A stretch of 64,000 nt of DNA from Hydra vulgaris (lineage: Eukaryota; Cnidaria; Hydrozoa; Anthoathecata; Hydridae), in NCBI RefSeq assembly GCF_038396675.1, contig NC_088922.1, positions 19,355,001 through 19,419,000 of the forward strand, given 5' to 3'. The notes under the pieces were generated by a model. The model saw nothing but the letters and a program-made list of their open reading frames with translations. It was not told the origin of the DNA and ran no database searches. This document shows positions 58,701-61,700 of this stretch, piece after piece (position 1 is the first letter of the stretch; each line of letters opens with the position of its first letter). A program made the translations under genes and the position numbers.

Positions 58701-61700
58701 TCTTAAAGAACAGAGCAATAATAAATTAGTAAAAAACACTTATCTAACTTTTATCTTCGACTATTCGACTATTTATCTTTGGTCTATTCTAAAATCTGCC
58801 CCTGCCTATAATAACATTTCCAAAAAATGTATGCTATGTTTGCAAGAAAAATTTGAAATATTTACTCATTTAAATCAAGAAAATTTATTAAATAAAAAAT
58901 CTGAATTAATTTCTAAATGTAGGCACGAAAATAAATACCTCTTAAAAAATTATAAAAACAAATGACCAAATTAAACTATCCCCATTCCAAAAAAAATTAT
59001 TTCATAATTACTTTCTGTAACTTCCCGTTAACAAAAAAATATAGTAATTAAAAATATTTTATAATAATTTATAACTTTCTGTAAAATATTTTTTTCTATA
59101 AATTGAATTTTTTTTGAGATTTAGTAACTCTTCCTGATGATCCAGCAATGGTGAAACTTCAAGTCGAAGATAAAAGTTAGATAAGTGTTTTTTACTAATT
59201 TATATATATATATATATATATATATATATATATATATATATATATATATATATATATATATATATATATATATATATATATATATATATATATATATATA
59301 TATATATATATATATATGTTTGTGTGTATGCATACATACATACATACATACATATAATAAACAAAATGAGCATATGTCAAAGTATCGCCATGAAAATAAA
59401 TTTCTAATCTGTAACTTCAAAGTCATCAAAGTGGACACTCAATATCATTTTTTGTATATAAATCCTTATTAAGCACTTGCTTATCACTTCGATCTTAAAT
59501 CTACACTTTTACATTTTATTTTTACATTTAGTAAGTTATGAAAACAACTTAAGCTAATAAAGAACTTTTTTTTTCTACTATTCAAAAACAATTGCAAATT
59601 AACATCCTAAAATTAAAACCTTCAAATATGTATTTGTCTTTGCTCATAAATCTGGAAACATATATGAGCTAGATAAATCTTTTTTTATATTGAAAATATT
59701 ACTAAAACATAAAATTTTTTAATTAAAATAATTAAAACATAAAAATTTTTAGTTAAAAAAAAAATTATTAAAAGATAAAAATTCTTATATCACACAATAA
59801 CTGTTATTTAATTTGTTGTTATTTAAATTTAATCAAAGTATTTTAAATATTTTAATACTAAATAACAATAGCTTATTAACTTAAGTTTATATTAATATTA
59901 ACTTAAATTTTGATATTAACTTATTTTTTATTAGGAGCAAATTGTCAAAAAGATTGTCTGTCCGGGAAAAATATCTTCTCTGGCTGTTTCACCTGATGGT
60001 CATTATTGTATTGTTGCATTGGTAGAAAAAATATATGTTTGGCAGGTAAGATTTATCAAAGTCCAATTATTTCTGAATCATTAGAGCATATGGAAAACAT
60101 TTTTTCATAAATACTTTGAAATTATTGTAATTATTGAAATTATTGTATTTATTGTAAATTGTAAATTATTGTAAATTGTAATTGTAAATTGTAAATTGTA
60201 ATTGTAAATTGTAAATTGTAATTGTAAATTGTAAATTGTAAATTATTGTAAATTATTGAAATTATTGTATTGCCATTTTATAGTTTATGTAAATATATTT
60301 TACATAATGTATAGAAATGAATACATACATTTATAAAGAGTCCTTAATTTTATGTCTTTTCAGATTATTCTTTATTACTGACCTTTCATGGAAATTCCAT
60401 TCTCTCCTGATTCCATTCTCTACCTCTATATAACTTTTATTTGCTCTTGTATCAAATACTGTGGTCATATTTGGGCTGGTTTTTTTTATAATTTTTTAAT
60501 TTATTAAAATATAATCTAATGATGTTCTTTCTTCTTTATACAAGATCTAAACGTAGTTAGACCTGCTCTAGTTGCTAAGTTCTAACTTCTGTCCTATTTT
60601 TGGTTTCATTTCTTTCTATTTTGTCCATCTTCTGTTCCATCAACTAGAATAAAATCTTGTGTTATTTATCATTCAGTAAGGTTGCACTTCTTACTGTAAC
60701 TGTTCCTTCAAGCCCAGAAAGCTTTTATTTATCTTTTTACACAAACATGTAATATATTAATGTGTGTTTGCAAATATAAATATATATATATCAACCCTCA
60801 GAATTAGGGTCGGCATTCAGCAATGCCGATCTAACTGCCGACCTGAAAGTATTTGAGATCGGCAAAAAATTGCTGACCTTGTTTCTATGCTTTATGGTTA
60901 GACCTTTGTATCAAATAATTTTTGCCAACCTGATGCCGACCTCAAAAAGATTGAGATTGGGAAATTATTGCCGACCTCATTTTTCCTAATTCCGAGGGTT
61001 GATATATATATACAGATTTTTATAAAGTGATTAATTAAACATGAGAAAATTTTAATTTAAAAAGATTTTTGTAATTTAATACCCTCTAATGCTTTACAAC
61101 GCTTGTTGTATGTTTTTAAAAATTACTAATGCTAATCATTTTCTTGATGACTAAATAGAAATGTGCTAATGATAACTATAGTTCATTTAAATTGCTAAAT
61201 GGGTTGATAAGTTTCATTCATTGCAATGACTTCGCAAATAGTGGCAAAATTTTATGAAATGAAAGTAGCTTATCAAAAATTATCAAAATATTTTAAACTA
61301 TTTTTCAGAATATTTGTCTAAAATAATTTATTATGAATATTTATTATTTTTGAAATATATCCAGGTTTGTAAATGGTTATTTTTTAAAACTAAGATTTTT
61401 TTAACTGGTCAACCTGTACCAACAAGAACTCATTGTAGGAGGTCAAAATAGCAATTTTGATCAGTTCAGGTAGTTATTTATTGTTGACCGCCCGTTATTT
61501 TGTGTGCTCGATATGTAATCATTTGAATAAAAAGATCTGATGACCTGGTAAGCTTCTTACACTCTTGAAGCATACGACACTTACTCTTTTGCAACACTTT
61601 TATAAGCACTTTTGTAACTCATGTTTCTTGAGTGTTCTAGTGTCTTCTTGAGTGTTCTAGTGTGTTCTTGGGTGTTCTAGGAAAGAGGAAAAGAGTAATA

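Follow-up and report, generated by a model that had tools for sequence, protein, structure and literature searches.

Why does a 64,000-nucleotide stretch of the Hydra vulgaris genome (assembly GCF_038396675.1, contig NC_088922.1, positions 19,355,001 to 19,419,000 of the forward strand; hereafter the window, with positions counted from its first base) hold two short sequences with the same hammerhead ribozyme core, separated by about 39 kb? The answer lies in the sequences that carry them: the two motifs are alike because both are ends of the same retroelement family. We conclude with high confidence that the motif at 59129-59170 is a minimal type I hammerhead ribozyme of a Penelope-like retroelement (PLE), lying, like its relative at 19303-19343, in a 5'-truncated and decayed copy. 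It is thus a short, probably self-cleaving RNA located in the end repeat of a broken element, self-cleavage being predicted from the sequence. The kind of motif is already known, as minimal type I hammerheads in the pseudo-long terminal repeats (pseudo-LTRs) of PLEs have been published. In the following, the element at about 19260-20530 on the minus strand is called copy 1 and the element at about 58659-59203 on the plus strand copy 2.

Direct reading of copy 2 gives the order UCUUC (helix I), CUGAUGA, UCCAGCAAUGGU (helix II with its loop), GAAA, CUUCAAGU, C17 at 59165, and GAAGA (helix I). Base positions in the pair table follow hammerhead numbering. The parts of the motif, and its counterpart in copy 1, are as follows.

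59129-59170, plus strand: minimal type I hammerhead motif, copy 2 (direct reading, pair table, scan with null models)
59134-59140, plus strand: core CUGAUGA, copy 2 (direct reading and pair table)
59153-59156, plus strand: core GAAA, copy 2, the last A being 15.1 (direct reading and pair table)
59156-59164, plus strand: helix III block ACUUCAAGU, copy 2 (pair table)
19303-19343, minus strand: hammerhead motif, copy 1, cut predicted between 19307 (U17) and 19306 (direct reading and pair table)

In both copies three helices surround the core and helix I is open, as in the type I layout. According to the pair table, helix I of copy 2 has 5 bp, helix II 3 bp (CCA/UGG with GCAA as its loop), and helix III 3 bp with a loop of three bases. 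Its cleavage triplet is GUC, and the cut is predicted between 59165 (C17) and 59166. The corresponding helices of copy 1 are 4 bp (I), ACC/GGU with a 7-base loop (II), and 3 bp (III), with the triplet GUU; both triplets are of the NUH type. An earlier note on this DNA had described the site in copy 2 as a second hammerhead with an unchanged core and a helix I lengthened to 5 bp, and both descriptions hold: all core bases are identical between the copies, and helix I is one pair longer than in copy 1.

The motif is rare in sequence of this composition. A geometric scan, which covered the window on both strands and required the core, the helices and the triplet in hammerhead arrangement, found exactly two sites, 59129-59170 (+) and 19303-19343 (-), compared with a chance expectation of 0.0175 sites per 64 kb in first-order Markov sequences with the dinucleotide make-up of the window (sites occurred in 7 of 400 runs, and in 1 of 60 in an earlier null test). 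When the scan of the window was relaxed to allow up to one mismatch in CUGAUGA, no hammerhead was found beyond copies 1 and 2. The loose text pattern of CTGATGA plus GAAA is less telling than the geometric scan. It matches the window six times, with 0.82 matches expected, and four of the six fall in one short tandem repeat at 49804-49853 on the minus strand, whose unit contains CTGATGACATTAAAGAAAGAAA and so produces false matches to the core pattern. As an outside control, 36 stretches of viral contigs matching a loose hammerhead pattern were inspected; none of them had the scan geometry, and none gave a protein match better than E = 0.09.

What the two copies retained as they diverged was assessed by aligning them with MAFFT and counting differences over ungapped columns. 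The ORF (open reading frame) part differs at 19 of 186 columns, and among its 62 codons 11 differences are synonymous and 7 non-synonymous, a sign of constraint on the coding sequence before the copies decayed. Between the ORF and the motif, the untranslated sequence has 51 differences in 160 ungapped columns, and 20 further columns are gapped. Together with a few flanking bases, the motif differs at 14 of 48 columns (4 gapped), counts that depend slightly on the alignment since MAFFT places a gap at the last base of CUGAUGA. From GTTAGATAAG onward, the 3' end differs at only 1 of 32 ungapped columns (3 gapped), a few bases of the (TA)n array included. None of the 12 core positions (CUGAUGA, GAAA and U16.1) differs. 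Compared with the untranslated stretch this gives Fisher p = 0.012, and compared with the remaining columns of the motif (14 of 36 different, a few flanking bases included) p = 0.008, both values being conditional, like the other conservation statistics, on the copies having been noticed because they match. In simulations, random substitution at 0.32 per site left a passing motif in 17 of 80,000 trials, and at 0.25 per site in 118 of 80,000; survival rises as the rate falls, to about 7.6% at 0.10, a rate that corresponds to the ORF divergence. Constraint on the core is supported by its unchanged state next to diverged neighbours.

The pairing contributes less to this picture than had been claimed. 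The earlier note took compensatory changes between the copies as a sign that the fold was selected, and the position-by-position table confirms one such change in helix III: at 15.3-16.3, the U-A said to replace A-U is a true double change (A-U in copy 1, U-A in copy 2). A second possible double change, at 15.4-16.4 (C-G in copy 1, U-A in copy 2), exists only in pairing between two ribozymes, because within one ribozyme a one-base loop would remain. Helices I and II show none. The four helix I pairs common to both copies are identical, and helix II, said to keep pairing with different bases, has instead slid by one position: from copy 1 to copy 2 the pair 10.1-11.1 changes from A-U to U.U, 10.2 and 10.3 stay C-G, and 10.4 changes from U.U to A-U. 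One pair is therefore lost, two are unchanged and one is gained, and we rejected covariation in this helix. The helix III blocks of the two copies agree at none of their five inner bases. At this base composition, two random pairs would both be complementary with a probability of about 9% (Watson-Crick pairs) to 17% (with G-U). Covariation between the copies is thus suggestive at most, two sequences carrying no statistical weight, and the claim made for it was overstated.

The surroundings of the two motifs can be recognized as copies of one element. In a BLAST search against the window they align over 474 bp with 78% identity, from the ORF to the 3' end and with some of the (TA)n array included. 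Three segments describe the coding part and the stretch that follows it.

19524-20288, minus strand: ORF of 254 amino acids (P0001), presumed C-terminal part of a PLE-like protein, with a GIY-YIG-like layout (assignment from protein motifs)
58780-58965, plus strand: presumed remnant of the PLE protein C-terminus (61 codons plus stop), with 90% identity to copy 1 over 60 amino acids
58966-59128, plus strand: 3' untranslated part of the element, in which the copies have diverged strongly (alignment)

The remnant in copy 2 is open in frame, without a frameshift, and the distance from the stop codon to the motif is about 180 bases in copy 1 and about 160 in copy 2. P0001 begins with a Cys-rich lead, followed by IIYKCIV, YIVLTEGKWKKRYANH, and a C-terminal part with C..C and CRH, while SNHPPQILKQIP is found in another frame just upstream of P0001 in copy 1. 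This layout, together with SNHPPQILKQIP, resembles the linker and GIY-YIG endonuclease of Penelope-like proteins, a putative assignment with no database match. Sub-threshold Pfam matches of P0001 to Peptidase_C39 and TreT_GT1 were regarded as chance, and the 61-residue remnant of copy 2 gave no Pfam match. Relatives were not confirmed in viral contigs, either by protein (10 and 109 pattern matches) or by tail DNA; none were found in plasmids or phages, and none were confirmed in prokaryote genomes (40 pattern matches). A eukaryote element is hardly expected in these collections. A third, weak match to the PLE C-terminus (22 amino acids, 64%, E = 0.008) was observed at 59356-59421 on the plus strand, beyond the (TA)n array of copy 2, with no hammerhead following it in the relaxed scan. 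Other BLAST matches of the elements in the window (21205-21152, 60499-60469 and 30568-30547), all of them short and AT-rich, were attributed to chance.

The assignment to PLEs has its main ground in the anatomy of the element ends, which resembles that of published PLEs, beside the protein motifs. Each copy ends with TTAGATAAGTG...ACTAATTTA, followed by a (TA)n array, and in both copies the hammerhead motif lies inside the pseudo-LTR, just upstream of the element 3' end. The terminal segments are listed here.

59171-59199, plus strand: 3'-terminal part of the direct pseudo-LTR, following the ribozyme and continuing into the (TA)n array (alignment of copies)
58721-58762, minus strand: inverted copy of the element 3' end at the 5' end of the truncated element, 42 of 42 bases identical to 59162-59203 (BLAST)
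58659-58720, minus strand: extension of the inverted arm, or tail (BLAST from 58682; further out by alignment and by eye)
20412-20462, plus strand: inverted 3'-end copy in copy 1, including the 3' part of the hammerhead, matching 19267-19317 with 98% identity over 51 bp

The tail, about 60 bases long with an outer limit set by eye, is common to both copies and absent from the direct 3' end. A pseudo-LTR with an inverted partial copy and a tail is therefore present in both copies, and it matches the PLE anatomy described in PMC3846280. Arrays of (TA)n occur at both ends of both copies, and target site duplications are unreadable within them. No ORF start was found in the tail of the inverted arm, as there is no frame among the three that both copies keep open all the way from the ribozyme across the tail. 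The ATG at 59148 reaches a stop after 10 codons; consequently, no ORF start can be assigned there either. By eye, a small hairpin of the form GUUC-loop-GAAC can be discerned in the tails of both copies, at 58699-58711 and 20472-20484. It is possibly comparable to the stem-loop where reverse transcription of an Anolis PLE begins.

A number of results weigh against the assignment. At the gathering threshold, no Rfam family matched in the whole window. Permissive Rfam searches around copy 2 gave 20 matches in a stretch of 1301 bases and 2 in a stretch of 91 bases, with no hammerhead in either; the matches obtained, low-complexity microRNA and other sub-threshold ones, were discarded. For copy 1, Hammerhead_3 was among six permissive matches and placed CUGAUGA and GAAA on the right bases. 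This match scored 13.9 bits with E = 1.2, where the cut-off is 48.5, and its layout was of type III with many broken pairs. As no hammerhead score exceeds the Rfam cut-off, the motif is classed only as a minimal PLE variant and not as a canonical Rfam hammerhead. The pair table shows a U.U mismatch in copy 2 where the base of helix II meets the core. Copy 2 with its flanks folds no better than shuffled sequences (z = +1.05; 170 of 200 shuffles at least as stable), and the hammerhead is not the minimum-energy fold of either monomer (-2.1 vs -4.4 kcal/mol in copy 2, -1.1 vs -6.1 kcal/mol in copy 1). The dimer of copy 2 is more stable in another fold (-14.8) than as the double hammerhead (-11.8), and shuffled dimers fold at least as well in 239 of 300 cases for copy 2 and in 240 of 300 for copy 1. 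On the protein side, no match of P0001 in Pfam, NCBIfam or the PDB exceeds its cut-off, which leaves the GIY-YIG assignment without profile support, its single-sequence structure prediction is useless (mean predicted local distance difference test score 32.6), and no reverse transcriptase domain was seen in either truncated copy. In favour of the assignment, besides the core placement in the weak Hammerhead_3 match of copy 1, the best two-strand fold of copy 1 (-16.0, compared with -13.4 kcal/mol for the plain double hammerhead) contains all double-hammerhead helices, together with an extra A14-U17 pair on each side, which the active form would not have. Folding energy was rejected as evidence, given that the copy 2 monomer with flanks and both dimers fold no better than shuffles.

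Some of these results would also be expected if the motif were a chance or decayed look-alike, with a likeness that reflects only the common descent of transposon copies and no ribozyme function in the family: Rfam offers no match above cut-off, the tested folds do not surpass shuffles, and only two copies are available. Such a look-alike would hardly explain an unchanged core in surroundings that differ by about 30%, a geometry that random drift almost never keeps, or the location in a type of repeat, the PLE pseudo-LTR, known to carry hammerhead ribozymes, and we give it little credence. An origin in a non-autonomous retrozyme or a satellite repeat, with a canonical type I hammerhead of the kind found in newts, Schistosoma and corals, would account for the type I core and the open helix I, and the U.U mismatch at the helix II base of copy 2 has a counterpart in one axolotl hammerhead (PMC7229834). 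In both copies, however, the motif stands behind a protein-coding ORF and not in short tandem repeats of ~300 bp, BLAST of both elements against the window detected no tandem array of the unit, and helix III has 3 bp; a source of this kind is on these grounds very improbable.

The inverted arms raise the question of a DNA transposon similar to a miniature inverted-repeat transposable element, as one pair of arms per copy, 42 and 51 bp long, could be read as terminal inverted repeats of about 40-50 bp flanked by TA. This is difficult to reconcile with the extra tail, which is attached to the 5' arm only, with inner arm ends that differ between the copies, and with an enclosed ORF whose linker and C-terminus resemble those of PLEs. 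The same pattern results from the inverted pseudo-LTR with optional tail, as published in PMC3846280, and we see next to no room for a DNA transposon. The minimal hammerhead of a PLE remains the reading that we prefer.

Minimal PLE hammerheads were reportedly described by Cervera and de la Pena (2014) and by Lunse, Weinberg and Breaker (2017), and the title of the latter states that these hammerheads self-cleave as dimers. How a PLE might use such a ribozyme can be outlined by analogy. An intact element would carry the pseudo-LTR at both ends or in tandem, and its transcript would accordingly contain at least two ribozymes. These might pair through the nearly self-complementary 9-base helix III (ACACAGUGU or ACUUCAAGU). 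Both blocks are self-complementary except in the middle, and ACUUCAAGU of copy 2 offers 3 bp as a monomer and 4+4 bp with another copy; a helix of this kind would be weak in the monomer, yet would permit two ribozymes in a tandem transcript to pair. The dimer would then cut the transcript after position 17 and free a unit-length RNA, which the reverse transcriptase/endonuclease of the element would copy into AT-rich DNA. What the window itself shows is the motif, its conservation, its position within the element and the structure of the element ends; cleavage, dimer action and a role in transposition are what we infer here from published PLEs. If dimers are needed, the lone copy 2 could not cut itself unless co-transcribed with another. 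It is conceivable, but quite unlikely, that this helix III of 3-4 bp varies in coordination from subfamily to subfamily and serves as a recognition code, by which ribozymes would pair best within their own subfamily and dimer cleavage would be subfamily-specific.

Published work is consistent with this outline. According to reviews, PLE hammerheads are minimal, with helix III or tertiary contacts missing, and may be active in cleavage as dimers (PMC6155905, PMC7761336), and palindromic stem III loops are given as a requirement for double hammerheads, with Penelope-like retrotransposons among the bearers (PMC6466107). The Hydra motif shares with minimal PLE hammerheads the type I core, the very short and nearly self-complementary helix III, and the location in a pseudo-LTR. 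Nothing that clearly distinguishes it from them was found; copy 2 has the U.U at the base of helix II, and helix III, described as usually absent from PLE motifs, has 3 bp as a monomer. PAc, a Poseidon-type PLE of Anolis carolinensis (PMC11167929), likewise combines a pseudo-LTR carrying a hammerhead with an optional tail and AT-rich insertion sites, and its tail is the stretch between start sites of reverse transcription. The role of cleavage in transposition is unsettled in these papers: cleavage by the PAc ribozyme required protein, and insertion in vitro did not depend on it (PMC11167929). Penelope families of Adineta vaga (PMC3846280) also comprise 5'-truncated copies bounded by an inverted pseudo-LTR, some of them with a tail, which is 31 bp long there and about 60 here. 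Metazoan retrozymes and newt satellite hammerheads (PMC7229834) resemble the Hydra motif in being type I with a weak helix III, and dimer action is described in amphibians, but they are non-autonomous short tandem repeats of about 300 bp, unlike the element studied here.

Further features of the window were recorded apart from the element. On the plus strand, a broken hAT-type transposase extends over several ORFs at 9163-11089, with a hAT C-terminal dimerisation domain at 10787-11086 (E = 1.3e-10), a hAT-like RNase-H at 9737-10375 that is below its cut-off, and no Pfam match at 9163-9609. Behind the (TA)n array closing copy 1, a truncated reverse transcriptase ORF is located at 18399-19145 on the minus strand (RVT_1, E = 1.3e-12), similar to a long interspersed element by the A run after the ORF. 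An exon-like ORF of eukaryote type at 51634-52320 (+) matches the C-terminal domain of POP1, an RNase P/MRP subunit (E = 2.5e-25).

A pair of hammerheads 39 kb apart thus needs no special explanation, both being ends of the same transposon family, and Hydra vulgaris would be one more eukaryote genome with PLE hammerheads. The sequences of the two subfamilies differ at every inner base of helix III and yet stay complementary, which may be regarded as a small, testable hint for dimer action.
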